Origin: Peptostreptococcus russellii
GTDB taxonomy: Bacteria > Bacillota > Clostridia > Peptostreptococcales > Peptostreptococcaceae
DNA length: 64,000 nucleotides
Direction of reading: 5' to 3'
Assembly: GCF_900110295.1 (NCBI RefSeq)
Contig: NZ_FODF01000002.1
Span: forward strand, 1 to 64,000
Positions 27,000 through 42,623 of the stretch are shown here, in pieces. The first letter of the stretch is position 1, and each line of letters starts with the position of its first letter. Position numbers and translations under genes: made by a program. Below the pieces are notes generated by a model that ran no database searches, was not told where the DNA came from, and was given only the letters and a program-made list of their open reading frames with translations.

Positions 27000-27449
27000 T
27001 TAGTTATCAATACTTTCCATTGTCTTGATAATTTCATTCATTGATTCGAAAAATTTACCTAGATTATCTTTTTCTATTCTTTCTATTTTGTCGTGAAGAT
27101 TAATTTTTAAATGTTCTAAGAACTCACAAGCCATCTTGTCCCCATCCTTAGTAAGAACAATATTATACTTTCTTCTGTCCTTTTTATCTTTCATCCTCTC
27201 AACATATTTCTTCTTTTCTAGGTCGTCTATCATACTTGTAAGACTCCCCTTTTCTATATTTAACATGTTGCATAATTCACTCATACTTATCGAACCATAG
27301 TTCTTTATAAAAGTAAGAGCTCTCACTTGATTTTTATTAATATTTTTTCCCTGTATAAAAGACTTAATATACTCTAAATAAAAATCATTGTACAATCTTG
27401 GAAGTGATTTAACCAAGAAAGATATCGTTGTGTCCACACTTTTCTGCAT
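27000..27449 (-). CDS. MarR-family transcriptional regulator
   Basis: 149 aa. The winged helix-turn-helix runs from KNQVRALTFIKNYGSISMSELCNMLNIEKGSLTSMIDDLEKKKYVERMKDKKDRRKYNI, the MarR signature with the DxR wing. Terminal helices give the dimer. Its promoter (27551-27579) is consensus and a TATGTC/GACATA palindrome lies at 27505-27520 in its leader, a likely autoregulatory operator. It lies downstream of the orphan lipoprotein gene but a terminator separates them. Start GAAGGGAGATATAAGT before ATG. Confidence 0.92.
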   Translation of the reverse strand: MQKSVDTTISFLVKSLPRLYNDFYLEYIKSFIQGKNINKNQVRALTFIKNYGSISMSELCNMLNIEKGSLTSMIDDLEKKKYVERMKDKKDRRKYNIVLTKDGDKMACEFLEHLKINLHDKIERIEKDNLGKFFESMNEIIKTMESIDN

Positions 27450-27504
27450 ACTTATATCTCCCTTCTATAACAAATACGCTTTCTAACTGCTTAAATAGTA
27501 GATA

Positions 27505-27579
27505 TATGTCATAAGACATAATTACCATACTTTTTACCTCTTTTAAGTATATTATAATTAAAAAATTATTTTTTTTCAA
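27505..27579 (-). promoter_or_regulatory. marR promoter and palindromic operator candidate
   Basis: TTGAAA at 27579-27574, 17 nt, then TATAAT at 27556-27551. TATGTC (27505-27510), ATAA, GACATA (27515-27520) lies about 25-40 nt downstream of the start. The gap 27450-27773 otherwise holds only the terminator. Confidence 0.6.
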
Positions 27580-27677
27580 CACTACACTATATTATCTGTG
27601 TTTTAATATGAAAACATTTTTTCAAAAGTCTTTAATAATAACATTTATTCCTATTAATACTGTTTTTCATTAAAAAA

Positions 27678-27699
27678 AAGTAGGTTTTTCACCTACTTT
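27678..27699 (-). terminator. Terminator of the orphan substrate-binding lipoprotein gene
   Basis: AAAGTAGG and CCTACTTT, loop of 6 nt; the minus strand continues TTTTTAATG. Confidence 0.75.
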
Positions 27700-27773
27700 A
27701 TTTTTTTATTAATTTATTTTTTTATTTATATTTTTTTCAAAAATATAAGTTTTATAAATTTTTTAAAGTTTTT

Positions 27774-28772
27774 TTACTTAATAAATTCAACTTTTACATT
27801 TTTGTCTAACTTTATACCCAAATCGTTCATTGTTTTTTCATTCATTACTAGTCTAGCTTTATCTGTAAACTTAACTGGAATATTTTCTGCTTTTTCTTCA
27901 CCTTTTAATATTTTACCAGCCATTTTACCAGCTTCTATACCTATTTCCTTGTAGCTTAATGAGTTTGCTGCAAGAGCACCATTCTCAACATGAGCTTCTT
28001 CTGAACCAATTACAGGGATCTTATCTTTTTTAGCAACCTCTACGATTACAGGCATCGAAGCTGCCATTAGATTGTCAGTTGGAGTAAATATAAGGTCTGC
28101 TTTCTTTGATAGAGTACTTACAGCCTGGCTTATTTCATTAGTTGAAGATACACCTACTTCAATTACTTCTAAACCATTTTTTGCAGCTTCCTTCTTCATA
28201 TTCTCCACTTGAAGTTTTGAATTAATCTCTGATGTATTAAATATAGCACCTATTTTCTTAGCATTTGGCAATACTGCCTTTATTACATTTATAGTCTTAT
28301 CAATATTTTGAAAATCTGATGTTCCAGTAATATTTGCACCTGTTTTTTCATTAGATTTTACTAGATTTGCCTTTTCTGGATCTGATACAGCTGTAAATAC
28401 TATCGGAATATCATTTGATTTTATTGCATTTTTTGCAGCCTGTGCCGCTGGAGTCGCAATAGCAAATATTAAGTCTTTATCATCTGTAACAAACTTATTG
28501 GCTATAGTTTGAGCAGTAGGAACATCACCTTGTGCATTTTGAACATCAAGCTCCAAATTTTTTCCTTCTTCAAAACCTTCTTCTTTCAATCCTTCAATAA
28601 ATCCATCTCTTGAAAGGTCTAAAGCAGGATGTTCTACAAGCTGTGAAACTCCAACCTTCTTGCTTTCACTATCCCCTGAGTTACAAGCAGTTAATGCTCC
28701 AACTGACAGTACAGCAAGCATAGCCATAGCAATTATTTTTTTTGCACATTTGTTTTTCTTTATGAATTTCAT
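27774..28772 (-). CDS. ABC substrate-binding lipoprotein, TrpX/CD0873-like (probable aromatic amino acid)
   Basis: 332 aa. The lipoprotein signal has its lipobox Cys at ~30 (LSVGALTAC), and the mature part is the ABC_sub_bind family (VGVSQLVEHPALDLSRDGFIEGL.. VTDDKDLIFAIATPAAQAA). The ATG at 28772 is chosen because ATTGGAGGTATTATT precedes it; the frame itself opens 114 nt upstream across two terminators. From memory, C. difficile CD0873 of this family binds tyrosine, which agrees with the Tyr-rich leader peptide upstream. Permease and ATPase genes do not follow, so its partner is elsewhere. Confidence 0.88.
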   Translation of the reverse strand: MKFIKKNKCAKKIIAMAMLAVLSVGALTACNSGDSESKKVGVSQLVEHPALDLSRDGFIEGLKEEGFEEGKNLELDVQNAQGDVPTAQTIANKFVTDDKDLIFAIATPAAQAAKNAIKSNDIPIVFTAVSDPEKANLVKSNEKTGANITGTSDFQNIDKTINVIKAVLPNAKKIGAIFNTSEINSKLQVENMKKEAAKNGLEVIEVGVSSTNEISQAVSTLSKKADLIFTPTDNLMAASMPVIVEVAKKDKIPVIGSEEAHVENGALAANSLSYKEIGIEAGKMAGKILKGEEKAENIPVKFTDKARLVMNEKTMNDLGIKLDKNVKVEFIK

Positions 28773-28805
28773 AATAATACCTCCAATTTTAATTAACAAG
28801 ACAAA

Positions 28806-28836
28806 TAAAAAAAACCGCCAGCAATTTACTGGCGGT
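28806..28836 (-). terminator. Attenuator terminator 2 (proximal to the lipoprotein gene)
   Basis: ACCGCCAG, TAAATTG, CTGGCGGT then eight further T on the minus strand: a perfect intrinsic terminator 34 nt before the lipoprotein ATG. Confidence 0.85.
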
Positions 28837-28852
28837 AGATTAAAATGGATAT

Positions 28853-28876
28853 AAAAAAACCGCCAACACGCGGCGA
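28853..28876 (-). terminator. Attenuator terminator 1
   Basis: CGCC, GCGTGTT, GGCG then GTTTTTTTAT on the minus strand. The stem is short but GC-rich and the U-run is strong. It lies 17 nt upstream of terminator 2. Confidence 0.6.
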
Positions 28877-28916
28877 TAACAATCAAAACTTATTTACAGA
28901 AGTTCTTTACTTTGGC

Positions 28917-29006
28917 CGACATGTTACAAACCTTTAATTTTGTACTCAAAATGGGTCTGCAACAAATTGTCGAATATAAACTATAATTCCAACACGCTAC
29001 AAGCCC
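28917..29006 (-). promoter_or_regulatory. Mutually exclusive stems of the attenuator leader
   Basis: On the minus strand segment A (29006-28996, GGGCTTGTAGC) starts at the last base of the leader-peptide stop codon. Segment B1 (28963-28953, GTTGCAGACCC) can pair with A (10 of 11 positions) or with B2 (28932-28923, GGTTTGTAAC). B1:B2 is reinforced by CGACA (28972-28968) with TGTCG (28921-28917) and by an inner ATTTTG/CAAAAT hairpin. Confidence 0.6.
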
Positions 29007-29059
29007 TAAATATAATAACCAAAGTAATAATAATATCTTCCATTAATAAATCCTAACAT
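29006..29059 (-). CDS. 17-residue Tyr-rich leader peptide
   Basis: ATG at 29059-29057, stop TAG at 29008-29006, encoding MLGFINGRYYYYFGYYI. It has six Tyr (four consecutive) and two Phe, and follows GGAGG by 7 nt. It is far richer in Tyr than chance and sits between a consensus promoter and tandem terminators. This is the classic design of a ribosome-stalling attenuator that senses charged tRNA-Tyr. No other role is proposed. Confidence 0.8.
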   Translation of the reverse strand: MLGFINGRYYYYFGYYI

Positions 29060-29109
29060 CTTTTTTCCTCCATTCTCCATTTATTTGTCTGTTTGTTTTA
29101 TTGTATATT

Positions 29110-29138
29110 ATAATAACATTTAATATTTTACGTGTCAA
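29110..29138 (-). promoter_or_regulatory. Promoter of the attenuated lipoprotein transcript
   Basis: TTGACA at 29138-29133, 17 nt, then TATTAT at 29115-29110 on the minus strand. The start is expected near 29103, leaving ~330 nt before the lipoprotein ATG. Confidence 0.75.
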
Positions 29139-29212
29139 TAAAAAATCAGAAAATTTTTTTATTTTAAATTAATTCACTTATTATAAGATTTTCAAAAGAT
29201 AATAGCCTTTCA

Positions 29213-29241
29213 TTGATTTTTAGAGCTTTATATGATAATAT
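29213..29241 (+). promoter_or_regulatory. uppP promoter
   Basis: TTGATT at 29213-29218, 17 nt, then TAATAT at 29236-29241. Confidence 0.6.
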
Positions 29242-29294
29242 TAATAGGTAAAATTTTGAATAAATTCTTTATTTTTGAATAGGAGGTTTTTGAT

Positions 29295-30107
29295 TTGTTA
29301 GAAATTTTAAAGGCCATATTCCTTGGTATTGTCCAAGGTATTACAGAATGGCTGCCTGTAAGTAGTACCGGACATATGATTCTTGTAGACCAGTTTCTAC
29401 ATCTTTCAGGTTCTGAGAAATTTATCAGTACTTTCCTTGTAGTAATACAGTTTGGATCTATATTAGCTGTACTGATGATTTATTTTGAAAAGCTAAATCC
29501 ATTTTCAAAAAAGAAAAGTCCAAAAGCAAGAAAAGCCACTTGGGATTTATGGATGAAGGTTATAATTGCTGTCATACCATCAGGAATTATAGGAGTTTTG
29601 TTTGAAGATCAAATAGATAGAGTATTCTTCAAACCTTCTGTAGTAGCTGCAGCTCTTATTATCTATGGTATCATAATGATATGGCTTGAAAATAGACATA
29701 AAAGACCTAAGATTACAAAATTCAGCCAATTATCATATAAAACAGCCCTTTATATTGGTATGTTCCAGATTCTTGCACTTGTACCAGGTACCTCAAGATC
29801 AGGTTCTACTATTATAGGTGCGGTTTTAATAGGTACATCAAGATATATAGCAGCGGAATTTTCATTCTTCCTTGCTATACCTACTATGCTAGGAGCAAGT
29901 TTACTTAAACTTCTAAAAGCTGGATTTACATTTAGTGCCTTTGAATGGTTAGTTATGTTTGTAGGATCATTCGTTGCATTTATAGTATCTGTTATAGTTA
30001 TAAAGTTCTTCATAAACTATATAAAGAAACATGACTTCAAGGCATTTGGTGTTTATAGAATAGTTTTAGGTTTGATAGTATTCCTATACTTTGCAATAGT
30101 TAAATAG
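29295..30107 (+). CDS. uppP: Undecaprenyl-diphosphate phosphatase (BacA type)
   Basis: 270 aa integral membrane enzyme that recycles undecaprenyl diphosphate to the monophosphate carrier for cell-wall synthesis; it gives bacitracin resistance when abundant. Both family motifs are present: EWLPVSSTGH near residue 17 and PGTSRSG near 174. Seven to eight membrane helices. The start is TTG, 8 nt after AGGAGG. Divergent from the attenuator leader and alone in its unit. Confidence 0.96.
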   Translation: MLEILKAIFLGIVQGITEWLPVSSTGHMILVDQFLHLSGSEKFISTFLVVIQFGSILAVLMIYFEKLNPFSKKKSPKARKATWDLWMKVIIAVIPSGIIGVLFEDQIDRVFFKPSVVAAALIIYGIIMIWLENRHKRPKITKFSQLSYKTALYIGMFQILALVPGTSRSGSTIIGAVLIGTSRYIAAEFSFFLAIPTMLGASLLKLLKAGFTFSAFEWLVMFVGSFVAFIVSVIVIKFFINYIKKHDFKAFGVYRIVLGLIVFLYFAIVK

Positions 30108-30132
30108 AAAATATTATTTTAAACATAAATTT

Positions 30133-30158
30133 ACCACTGCATAAGCAGTGGTTTTTTA
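30133..30158 (+). terminator. uppP terminator
   Basis: ACCACTGC, ATAA, GCAGTGGT then TTTTT. Confidence 0.85.
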
Positions 30159-30180
30159 TTTATATTATCTTTTTACAATA

Positions 30181-31965
30181 CTATATATCTCCTAATATTC
30201 TTATTATATCGCTATTATCACTTGTATATGAAACTATTATACTAAGACATTCTTCCGCCCTTGTCATACCTGTATATACCTTGTTCAAATCCCCTACAAA
30301 ATCATTTACCTGATAGTCTTGACTATCCTTTTCTATATTGTGGTTATATAGCATTTCCAGCTCACAAAGGACTATAACCTTGTAAGAAAGCGACTTTATA
30401 GAATATATATTAGATATAGTGATCCCATCTTTAGGTGTTATATTGGTTACTGTATCATCTGCAAAAATATATTCTATCCCAGTATCTTCAAGAGATTTTC
30501 TCAGCATATACTGGAAATATATCATTTTCCCATTTTTTAACCTCTTTTTATTATATGGATAAACAATAGCTATATCTTCAGGAGAATATCCTAAATCGTT
30601 TATCATATGTTGAACTTCCCATATAACTGAACTAATTTGATCATCTAAGTCCTCTACTCTTACAATATTAACAGACTGATTGTTCTCCCACGTAAAGTTC
30701 GTTTTCTTATAAACGTCCGTTTCAATATTTTCTCTAAGACTTTTTATAAAACTATTAGCTCTATCACAATATCTGTTGACAAATTCTACTATTTCTTTAC
30801 CTTGTCTATAGTTTTTATCTAAATAAATTTCATCTTCATATTCAATTGCCCTAATATTACACTTAAATATATTTAAATTATTATTTATATTGTATGCCTT
30901 ACATACACTCGCATTAAATATATTCTTAGTACTGTATAAAAATTCATTTACAAGTATAACTTCTTCTTCACTAAGATTTTCTGCCTCATCTACAAATATC
31001 CCCTTATACATCTTCTTATTTTTCATTGTATTGTTAATCTGCTTCATAATATTTATAAATGATTTATCATAATTTTTCTTTAGCATATTATAATTAATAA
31101 CCAAATTATTCGCCTTAGCTAGTTTGAATATAAAAGAACTAAATGTAAAAACCTCTATATTAGATGTATCCACATTTAATATCTCAAGTAATTCTTTATA
31201 TCTATTGCATTGTTGCTTTGTAAATGACAAAAGAAGAAACTTGTGATGAGGATAAATTTTAGAAAGCTTTATTATTCTCCCTAATAACAAAGAGCTCTTA
31301 CCAGTTCCTGAGCCTCCTACAATCAAATGATTTCCATAATTTGCAGATGCAATTTCTGTAATTTGCTTTTCCTCTAACATACAAACTTTATAACTTATCT
31401 CATCATGTTTAAAGGATATTTTCTTGAAAAAAGGATTTAAATTCAAATCCTCAGTAACTGTAAAATACTCATTGCATATACCAAATATAAACATAGAAAG
31501 TTCAATCTCATCATTTTGTTTACTTAGATGCTTATCTAAAAGATTCGTATCCTCTGCAAGTTCCTTAGCTTCATTCCCCACTATAACATACTTATCGATA
31601 AAGTTTACCATATCGTACTTTTCTTCTATAAACTCTATATTAGGCATTGCAAATATATAGTTAAAATGAATATTTGGATAGTGTTTGCTCATATTTTTAC
31701 ACAAAAGTTCATATTCTTCATTCATTATTTCAAGTATTTCTTCATCCAAAAAAGAAAATAATTCTTCTGTTGTATCCATAAATTTTATAAATAATATAGA
31801 ATTATTTCTTATATATAATATATCAGTGTTTACACCCTTAAAAGGTATTACCTTTGGTATTAATAAATCACCGTCTTTCGCATTTCTGTATATATTCTTT
31901 TCGATATCTTTTAGCTTTAAAGCTTCTAAATTAGATTTTATATCTTTATAGTTTTTCAATATCAT
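30181..31965 (-). CDS. UvrD/PcrA-like superfamily I helicase-related ATPase
   Basis: 594 aa. An N-terminal ~200 residues of unknown fold (rich in Glu/Ile, possibly a degenerate nuclease-type domain) precede a helicase core: Walker A VGGSGTGKSS (~216-225), a motif II of the form GIFVDEAENL (~330) and a C-terminal motif YTGMTRAEECLSI (~573-585). The length is shorter than PcrA/UvrD (~720 aa). The frame opens at ATG 31965 directly against GGAGG; a TTG at 31959 is better spaced, so the start is uncertain. It may act in DNA repair or defence; the neighbours give no hint. Confidence 0.75.
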   Translation of the reverse strand: MILKNYKDIKSNLEALKLKDIEKNIYRNAKDGDLLIPKVIPFKGVNTDILYIRNNSILFIKFMDTTEELFSFLDEEILEIMNEEYELLCKNMSKHYPNIHFNYIFAMPNIEFIEEKYDMVNFIDKYVIVGNEAKELAEDTNLLDKHLSKQNDEIELSMFIFGICNEYFTVTEDLNLNPFFKKISFKHDEISYKVCMLEEKQITEIASANYGNHLIVGGSGTGKSSLLLGRIIKLSKIYPHHKFLLLSFTKQQCNRYKELLEILNVDTSNIEVFTFSSFIFKLAKANNLVINYNMLKKNYDKSFINIMKQINNTMKNKKMYKGIFVDEAENLSEEEVILVNEFLYSTKNIFNASVCKAYNINNNLNIFKCNIRAIEYEDEIYLDKNYRQGKEIVEFVNRYCDRANSFIKSLRENIETDVYKKTNFTWENNQSVNIVRVEDLDDQISSVIWEVQHMINDLGYSPEDIAIVYPYNKKRLKNGKMIYFQYMLRKSLEDTGIEYIFADDTVTNITPKDGITISNIYSIKSLSYKVIVLCELEMLYNHNIEKDSQDYQVNDFVGDLNKVYTGMTRAEECLSIIVSYTSDNSDIIRILGDI

Positions 31966-41327: not shown

Positions 41328-42623
41328 TTAGAACATTGTAGGTCCATCTACTTCTGTAGATAAAGCTTCTATTGCTCTGTCTACTAATGAATTTCTCAAA
41401 GAAAATTCCTTTTTTCCCTTTTCTGGATTACCTACTGGATAAGGTATTGCAACAGTAGGAACTATTCTATTAGCTCCAACTGACTTTGATATTGTAACTA
41501 TTGTAGCCATATGTACAATAGGAATTCCATATCTTTCTATTTCTTTGACCATCGTTGCACCGCAACGAGTACAAGTTCCTCACGTAGAAGTTAGGATAAC
41601 GCCATCTACACCAGCATCTTTTAATTCTTGTCCTATTTCAGTACCAAAAGTAATAGAATTTCCTATTGCTGTTCCTGTACCTGTAGTAGTGTAGAACATA
41701 TCGAATACTTTTCCAATTTTGCCTTCTTTTTCAAGCATTCTTAAAGAGTCAAGTGGAACAACTCTATCTGGATCTTCATTTGCATATACTGGGTCATATC
41801 CGCCATGTATTGTACAGTAATCGCCTTTTAAAGCATCTAGTTTTGATACATCATACTTACCCCACTTCTGAGCCGAAGCTGACTGAATTCTATCTGGATT
41901 TCCTAGTGGAACTATACCACCTGAAGTAACAAGTGCAATAGTTGCTTTTGACATATCCTTTATTGCAGGAGCTGGATCTACAGTATCAAATACAGGCATT
42001 GGAAGTTCAGTCTTAAACTCCTCACCATTCAATCTCTTCATCAGTAGCTCTACTGCTCTTTGAGAACCAGTTTTTTCAGAGAATACTGTCAGTCTCTTTC
42101 CTTGAGCAAAATAATTATCTACATCAGGCTTTACAAGTTCTCCATTTAATATTTTTTCACTTATTTTTGCCATTATCGGAAGTGCTTTTCTCATTTTTGC
42201 TGCTGAATCACCAGTTTTCGCTACATAAGCTACTTTTCTAGCTTCTTCAAGACCTGGATTTTCTTCATACATACCTGATATTACAGGAATCCCTATTTCT
42301 TTAGCGAAAAATTCTGCAACCCCTTGGCATGCCATTCCATAACGACCTGCATTAAATGCTGGACCAGCCACTACAAGATCTGGCTTTATTTCATCGTTTA
42401 TTTTCTTTAAAAACGCTATTGCTTCATCTTTATTTTCATTAAAATAGTTGTCACCACATATTACAGTTGCAACTACTTCGCCTGCATCACCTAATTTTTG
42501 AGCATAAGCTGCTGCTGGCCCAACTGCTTCTTCTTTTAACATAGGAGGTATATCTGCCTTTTCTTCTCCTCCTATCTGTCCAAAGAACTGATTTAGATAG
42601 TATAAGATTTTCTTATTTGACAT
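41328..42623 (-). CDS. grdB: Glycine/sarcosine/betaine reductase component B, selenoprotein subunit (GrdB/GrdF/GrdH)
   Basis: 431 aa with an in-frame UGA at 41582-41580 read as selenocysteine (residue 348). Flanks fit the family exactly: GVILTST before and GTCTRCGATMVKEIERYG after it. The start MSNKKILYYLNQFFGQIGGEE is typical of GrdB and follows AAGGAGGAAGAAAA. GrdB is the substrate-activating subunit of the Stickland reductase: it binds the amine substrate as a Schiff base with GrdE and releases acetyl via GrdA/GrdC. Read without selenocysteine it looks split, but the reading frame and downstream homology are continuous. Sequence alone does not separate glycine from sarcosine or betaine. 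Confidence 0.93.

Follow-up and report, generated by a model that had tools for sequence, protein, structure and literature searches.

A putative tyrosine-reading attenuator upstream of a transporter lipoprotein gene in Peptostreptococcus russellii and its recoded relatives

Most cases of leader-peptide attenuation come from Proteobacteria and Actinobacteria (PMC2965389), and in Clostridia such work is otherwise done by T-boxes. The enteric his and trp attenuators correspond to Rfam families RF00514 and RF00513, and the his leader has alternating segments. Among other bacteria, His leader peptides precede hisZ/hisS* in bacilli (Naville and Gautheret 2010, PMC2965389), and Staphylococcus aureus has a Leu-rich ilv attenuator (PMC5794164). 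His attenuators of his operons were predicted for Peptostreptococcaceae, including Clostridioides difficile (Rodionov et al. 2022, PMC9413887), in a paper where RF00514 also appears. An RNA survey of 26 genomes reported uORF candidates as predicted ribosome-mediated attenuators, one with a Phe codon before aroF in Acholeplasma (PMC8632094). T-boxes (RF00230) sense aminoacylation and are modular by codon. One of them controls the related TrpX transporter of Streptococcus suis (PMC9382623).

Here, we describe a leader within a 64,000-nucleotide stretch of the P. russellii genome (the whole stretch of DNA that was analyzed, hereafter the window). It is very likely a ribosome-mediated transcription attenuator reading tyrosine, although stalling, termination, and the response to tyrosine are inferred from sequence alone. 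As in the his and trp attenuators of enterics, a leader peptide carries a run of the sensed codon, and the position of the ribosome is predicted to pick antiterminator or terminator. Unlike them, the Tyr leader has no Rfam match, its codon run pairs beside segment 3 (see below), it has two terminators, the genes concerned are mostly transporter genes, and the amino acid is Tyr. The His attenuators of Rodionov et al. (2022) occur in the same bacteria, and two hisZ-type leaders of Clostridioides-type genomes (L166 and L167), which probably stand at the same operon, share the core of the Tyr leader; however, that paper treats His only in the sections bearing on this question and does not connect it with leaders for Tyr, Phe, or Leu or with transporters of aromatic amino acids. 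Both of our covariance models (R1 and R2, below) find the hisZ-type leaders in Clostridioides-type genomes, a comparison made without that paper's own alignment. The bacilli His and S. aureus ilv leaders are likewise leader-peptide attenuation in Firmicutes but differ in hosts and genes, and the uORF candidates of the 26-genome survey belong to other taxa and motifs, with no Tyr member in the parts bearing on our case. The Tyr leader differs from the T-box in giving no covariance match and in having its codon read, as we infer, by the ribosome. In the open-access literature that we searched, there was no Tyr, Phe, or Leu leader in Clostridia (Leu was not targeted by name, and subscription papers lay mostly outside the search) and no statement of one RNA core serving several amino acids. 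Within that literature, leader-peptide attenuation is known, the His attenuators of Peptostreptococcaceae have been predicted, and the Tyr, Phe, and Leu members and the shared recodable core are apparently new. The original prediction, made without database searches, had called such a layout rarely described in Clostridia; this held only in part, given the His attenuators predicted in 2022.

Inspection of the sequence places all parts of the leader and the lipoprotein gene on the minus strand of the window. A consensus scan gives a promoter at 29110–29138 (TTGACA, 17 bases, TATTAT, with an extended TG; 11 of 12 consensus bases). GGAGG at 29067–29071 is the ribosome binding site of the leader ORF MLGFINGRYYYYFGYYI (29006–29059), which has 17 codons from ATG at 29059 to TAG at 29008–29006 and encodes six Tyr, four of them consecutive. 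The tandem Tyr control codons, TAT TAT TAT TAC, lie at 29024–29035, with two further Tyr codons at 29017–29012, and the run is kept in relatives. Sequence and terminator scans identify terminator 1 with its U run at 28853–28877 (hairpin 28877–28859) and terminator 2 with its U run at 28807–28836 (hairpin 28836–28814), and the lipoprotein ATG at 28772 is itself preceded by GGAGG. The original prediction of a promoter, GGAGG, a 17-codon Tyr-rich ORF, and two U-run hairpins before the lipoprotein gene was thus upheld by sequence and scans. The two strands of 27500–30500 together hold seven terminator-like sites, where shuffled sequence would give 0.9. Promoter-like sites overall were no more frequent than chance (18 vs 17.8 expected), and the leader promoter was among the two best of them. 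The leader RNA folds with a z of −6.5, none of 100 shuffles being equally good. The leader is more than a chance arrangement, because its Tyr run recurs both in a second leader of the same genome and in relatives. As to the surroundings, a BacA/UppP gene (PF02673; 29295–30107, plus strand) starts about 160 bases from the leader promoter in the opposite direction. Elsewhere in the window, an ORF at 41328–42623 (minus strand) has one in-frame TGA and a SECIS_4 match at 41542–41579; we take it to be glycine reductase subunit B-like.

The regulated gene (27774–28772, minus strand) encodes a substrate-binding lipoprotein of PF04392 (6e-88), a probable Tyr binder. Its closest solved structure is 6HNI (E 2e-94), which is CD0873 of C. 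difficile with bound tyrosine (Kd 94 uM), where Glu-263 holds the Tyr hydroxyl (PMC6816091). With residues matched by eye, the pocket Glu and Tyr of CD0873 are retained in the window protein (IGSEEA...SLSYKEIG vs IAAESG...GINYEKLG). From this and from the relatedness to CD0873, we infer that the window lipoprotein likely binds tyrosine, although binding has not been shown. The claim that tRNA-Tyr charging sets the expression of a tyrosine-binding lipoprotein is supported, with both the response and the binding remaining inferences. The pocket residues were also considered as a discriminator between Tyr and Phe and rejected, since they did not split Tyr- from Phe-coded operons and the Glu is found at Phe-coded ones as well. 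Downstream of the lipoprotein gene, past a terminator-like site, lies a MarR-family regulator gene (27000–27449, minus strand).

On another contig of the same genome, we found a stretch 72% identical to the window leader. This second leader, MNLLNNNYYYYFGYYV, has the same downstream blocks and two hairpins and stands upstream of permease and ATPase genes. Because it precedes the permease and ATPase genes and the window holds the only lipoprotein match in the genome (at E 1e-40 or better), the transporter is likely split over two loci with one leader per half, an inference from sequence. A P. russellii record, at 72% to the window in the protein, has the leader MRKFTNIYYYYFAYYI.

We aligned 34 leaders from 21 genomes of the family (alignment A2) and tested five helices, which join the following segments, all on the minus strand. 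Segment 0, UUACUUUGGUU (29017–29027), lies inside the Tyr/Phe codons and pairs with segment 3c, GGCCAAAGUAA (28907–28917), its complement by A2 covariation and also by eye (columns 46–52:175–181; 95.3% of cells paired, 4 of 7 pairs changed on both sides). Segment 1, GGGCUUGUAG (28997–29006), starts at the last base of the stop codon and, in the ON state, pairs with segment 2 (63–76:108–120; 90.0% paired, 7 of 13 changed on both sides). Segment 2, GACA..UUGCAGACCC (28953–28971), can pair with either segment 1 or segment 3. Segment 3, GGUUUGUAACAUGUCGGCC (28914–28932), has as partner segment 2 in the OFF state (105–120:158–173; 88.7% paired, 5 of 16 changed on both sides) or the terminator 1 5' arm in the ON state. 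The part of that arm used by the antiterminator (T5), GCCGCGUG (28867–28874), faces CAUGU(C)GGC at 28923–28915 (166–178:251–263; 96.7% paired, 3 of 12 changed on both sides), and the terminator 1 helix itself (251–260:269–278) is paired in 96.4%.

Both sets of helices are supported by paired changes. For the OFF set (0:3c, 2:3, and T5:T3), 92.4% of 1103 cells were paired and 12 of 33 pairs were changed on both sides, and none of 500 shuffles scored as high. The ON set (1:2 and 3:T5) was paired in 93.1% of 831 cells with 10 of 25 pairs changed on both sides; shuffles were as high in 3 of 500 cases on the both-side-changed pairs and in 0 of 500 on pairing. When the helix partners were slid by 1 to 3 columns, pairing in A2 fell to 25.5–48.2% of cells. 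A larger alignment (A4; 75 rows, 72 distinct, His leaders included) was model-aligned without the ON pairs and shares most A2 loci; on it, the ON set was 90.6% paired with 11 of 25 pairs changed on both sides (7 of 500 shuffles as high), and slid versions paired in 23.1–51.5%, although a slide of −2 tied with the true register in both-side-changed cells (33 each). Reverse-strand matches of the covariance models, at E about 1e-5 or weaker, come from palindromic terminators, and an alignment A3 was for this reason set aside in favor of A4; the Leu leader L179 was also excluded from A4. The shuffle tests were uncorrected for the relatedness of the leaders. Two mutually exclusive helix sets, both with paired changes, are common to the 34 leaders from 21 genomes, and the order of the segments implies a his-operon-like logic. 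The ORF, the segments, their compensatory pairing, their conservation, and the copy at the partner operon are shown by sequence comparison. The original prediction had proposed a trp/his-type attenuator layout, which held through the segments and their compensatory changes in relatives, and had named beforehand a conserved ORF with its Tyr run and compensatory stem changes as the features to look for, both of which were found. It had missed the second copy at the permease operon, the pairing of Tyr codons with downstream RNA, and the wide family with swapped codons.

On this basis, we propose the following mechanism. Transcription would start just 3' of the promoter at 29138–29110, and a ribosome would load on the Tyr-rich ORF. 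When charged tRNA-Tyr is ample, the ribosome would reach the stop codon and cover segment 1, so that 2:3 pairs, terminator 1 forms, and transcription stops. When charged tRNA-Tyr is scarce, the ribosome would stall on the Tyr run, keeping the codons off 3c and leaving segment 1 free; 1:2 and 3:T5 would then pair and allow read-through into the lipoprotein gene. Without a ribosome, the codons could pair with 3c, and the default would be mostly OFF. The second copy of the leader would pass the same signal to the distant permease/ATPase operon.

Leaders of this kind are spread across the family. A lipoprotein match at E 1e-40 or better was present in 33 of 71 family genomes and a permease match in 31 of 71. 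Leaders with Tyr, Phe, or mixed codons stand upstream of many such genes (MNTLLNNKKYYYYYSHYF, MITLLNKNRYYYYSQYL, MKTRLYYYYYNLYI, MKTLLNKQVRFFSSQFS, MNNLLNIKNSFFFNSKFR, and others), and the small ORF, its SD sequence, and the codon run recur across several genera. The Tyr runs of 17 leaders comprise 61 TAT and 14 TAC codons, and those of five Clostridioides-type Tyr leader orthologs differ by TAT/TAC only. The binding protein of genome G010 is nearly identical to 6HNI, from which we inferred the genus Clostridioides; this genome has a Tyr leader at its CD0873-type operon and a Phe leader at the neighboring paralogous operon. Separate Tyr (YYYYYSHY) and Phe (FFSSQF) leaders thus stand before paralogous operons in one Clostridioides-type genome. 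As a side observation, the operon beside the CD0873-type one (L096 836–1058, G010) has the Phe leader RFFSSQF with this RNA core as well, so that the two adjoining transporters are predicted to be controlled separately, one by Tyr and the other by Phe. Loss of two genes of such a transporter in C. difficile has been tied to lower uptake of Tyr and Phe (PMC5951980).

The distribution also has gaps. Several lipoprotein genes of the family have no leader directly upstream, and the more distant permeases L072–L078 have none within 480 bases. DNA and covariance-model searches found no leader in seven other genomes of the genus, of which six lack a lipoprotein at E 1e-40 and the seventh, G041, has a distant one. 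A direct DNA search of the family with the window leader returned only short matches outside the genus, among them L013, which turned out to be a genuine leader. A plasmid search with a Clostridioides-type leader as query matched nothing.

The same core was found with other codons before other genes. Covariance model R1, built from the aromatic leaders of A2 only, matched 47 of 71 family genomes at E 0.01, including loci far from these transporters; as no His leader went into the model, its matches to His leaders depend on the RNA core. With a broader model (R2; cut-off E 1e-5), 75 of 392 genomes of the order (28 outside the family) and 18 of 392 in a sample of the class (14 outside the order) were matched. 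We read 90 loci from the match lists (40, 31, and 19), which are not all of the matches; genes were sorted by script, and codon motifs were typed after reading the same 90 loci. Pfam agreed with the scripted gene class for ten representatives. A codon type could be called in 86 of the 90 loci, and none contradicted its gene where the gene was recognized. HisZ/HisS-like genes had His leaders in 34 of 34 cases, and three further His leaders stood at genes recognized as HisZ/HisS-like by Pfam (L166) or by eye (L167 and L230). His leaders also preceded six of seven family-3 binding proteins, the seventh (L176) reading CATCATCACCATCAT with no start called, and one unidentified gene (L238). Tyr/Phe leaders preceded 18 of 18 BrnQ-like genes, as well as L182, which is probably the same gene, and 15 of 15 SNF genes other than the LeuT-like type, whose four members all had Leu leaders. 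The single NhaC-type gene had a Tyr leader. For ABC permeases, three of six leaders were Tyr/Phe, and the other three were uncalled, with two separate Phe codons each by eye. The codon run is linked to downstream RNA by helix 0:3c in recoded form as well: UUACUUUGGUU pairs with GGCCAAAGUAA in the window and UAUUAUAACCU with AGGUUAUAAUA in L023, and CAUCAU pairs with AUGAUG as the equivalent in His leaders (by eye).

Some of these loci deserve mention in their own right. The LeuT-like SNF loci L179, L253, L268, and L269 have Leu runs such as VLLLLAELL on the same core. Tyr/Phe leaders stand at BrnQ-like "branched-chain" transporters (L148–L156, L159–L162, L170, L171, L177, L183, and L184), and these leader codons suggest aromatic amino acids as the cargo of such transporters. 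At L214, a gene of the Na+/H+ antiporter family (PF03553) has the leader YYYYYR, and its product might be a tyrosine carrier.

Ribosome positions were modeled by folding transcripts that end before the terminator 1 3' arm while masking the 15 bases to either side of the P site (an assumed value). Across 71 leaders, antiterminator pairs averaged 5.2 and 2:3 pairs 7.9 when the A site was on control codons; at the stop codon, the means were 1.2 and 13.9, respectively. In 53 of 71 leaders, the best control codon outdid the stop codon by over 3 antiterminator pairs (18 exceptions), but comparing the best of several codons with a single stop codon is biased toward the run; by run mean, 56 of 71 were above the stop by more than 1 pair and 1 of 71 was below by more than 1. 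Because the leader rows are related, the Wilcoxon test of run versus stop (p of 6e-12; 71 leaders) makes the contrast look stronger than it is. The window leader is among the 18 exceptions, with at most 1.1 antiterminator pairs on control codons vs 0.0 at the stop. With hand-set segments, it reached 2.9, and the permease twin and two Clostridioides-type leaders switched clearly. With the ribosome on the run, the mean exceeded 5 antiterminator pairs in 36 of the 71 leaders; the corresponding counts were 39 for positions upstream of the run, 11 without a ribosome, and 0 at the stop. Several BrnQ-type leaders had fewer antiterminator pairs on the run than upstream. The contrast predicted by the model is mainly stop versus not-stop, and the codon run is not singled out. 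This is compatible with an attenuator whose run merely sets where the ribosome waits and does not prove that the run is best placed. Because stalls upstream of the run often give ON too, our confidence in tyrosine attenuation is slightly lowered. With terminator 1 complete, the terminator beat the antiterminator at equilibrium in all four hand-set leaders, including that of the window; therefore, the switch must be kinetic and act during transcription.

The two terminators may also be connected. The terminator 2 5' arm, ACCGCCA, is complementary to the terminator 1 3' arm as well, and in 25 of 26 leaders these two arms can form an unbroken helix at least 6 long; the other 8 of the 34 were left out of the count, seven as near-duplicates and G034 lipo for its doubtful second hairpin. 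A freed terminator 1 3' arm could thereby pair with the terminator 2 5' arm, and one decision may open both terminators. This relay is possible but stays a conjecture, because a duplicated terminator would look alike and because folding of the permease twin with both terminators complete opposes a simple relay, the pairing of the two arms appearing in the stop and no-ribosome states too. Separately, Clostridioides-type leaders (L096 4669–4704 and others) have a poor U run at terminator 1 (TTATTCG) and a good one at terminator 2, and the second hairpin could conceivably be the effective stop in them.

Could the leader be something other than an attenuator? A divergent T-box, in which uncharged tRNA-Tyr is bound by the RNA itself, would be unsurprising in that T-boxes are common in this genome: a search serving as a positive control gave 15 matches, 13 of them over the cut-off. 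However, none of these lay at either leader, Rfam gave no family over the window leader at gathering score, relaxing the limit to E 10 brought 22 matches but no T-box, the 20 + 20 related loci had no Rfam match at gathering score, and the AGGGTGG core is absent, as the original prediction had said. A covariance match to a T-box, which that prediction had listed among the results that would refute it, thus did not appear. This alternative is all but excluded. The Rfam leaders of amino-acid operons (His, Trp, Leu, Thr, and Phe) likewise did not match the window leader or related loci at gathering score. A trpB-motif match to the window leader was rejected, as it reached 28 bits against a cut-off of 59 and covered only the terminators. 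A metabolite riboswitch, with tyrosine bound directly by the RNA that separates the ORF from the terminator and with no role for the ORF, could draw on the strong fold (z −6.5) and on the conserved primary sequence of segments 2 and 3. Yet the same core precedes hisZ/hisS-like, BrnQ-like, SNF, and ABC genes with a codon run that follows the gene, most of the invariant bases lie in segments that need two partners each, and the loops vary in length and sequence; we consider a riboswitch very improbable.

We hold in similarly low regard the idea that the hairpins are fixed terminators or processing sites and that the Tyr-rich ORF either encodes a small protein or arose by chance. In its favor, there are two strong hairpins, and for the ribosome positions that were folded, complete leaders prefer terminator 1 to the antiterminator at equilibrium. 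Against it, the antiterminator 3:T5 is paired in 96.7% of cells over 34 leaders, the ORF, SD, and codon run recur in several genera with a codon identity that fits the gene, and an always-closed terminator would silence the gene if the 29138 promoter is the main one, although weaker promoter-like sites downstream are not excluded. A more serious possibility is a true attenuator that answers to general slowing of ribosomes or to aromatic amino acids jointly rather than to tyrosine alone. The Tyr run has a Phe codon after it (YYYYFGYY), leaders that mix the two are common (RFYYSHY, YYYFSQF, and FYFSYYS), upstream stalls fold to ON in many leaders, and the C. difficile transporter of this kind has been tied to uptake of both Tyr and Phe (PMC5951980). 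On the other hand, the window run has six Tyr to one Phe, and one Clostridioides-type genome keeps Tyr and Phe leaders apart. This reading remains possible.

Tyrosine attenuation thus remains our preferred account of the window leader. A bolder reading, towards which we lean only narrowly, is that of one old ribosome-read switch across Peptostreptococcales and some other Clostridia, in which swapping the codon run has given versions for at least Tyr, Phe, His, and Leu. The run would still pair with 3c, and where terminators stand in tandem, alternate pairings (1:2, 3:4, 5:6 vs 2:3, 4:5, 6:7) would set both at once. If true, this switch would be a ribosome-read counterpart of the T-box, with one chassis and an exchangeable specifier.

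For the biology of the family, these findings mean that a single RNA architecture, with codons for Tyr, Phe, His, or Leu, fronts uptake and histidine genes in Peptostreptococcaceae and relatives. Such a leader also precedes the transporter cluster of the C. difficile type, which imports the tyrosine that feeds p-cresol production. Substrates can be predicted from the codon run as well: by this criterion, BrnQ-like proteins, many SNF proteins, and one NhaC-type protein are probable carriers of aromatic amino acids, and LeuT-like proteins are probable carriers of leucine. Finally, the twin leaders of P. russellii suggest how a transporter split over two loci could stay in step.
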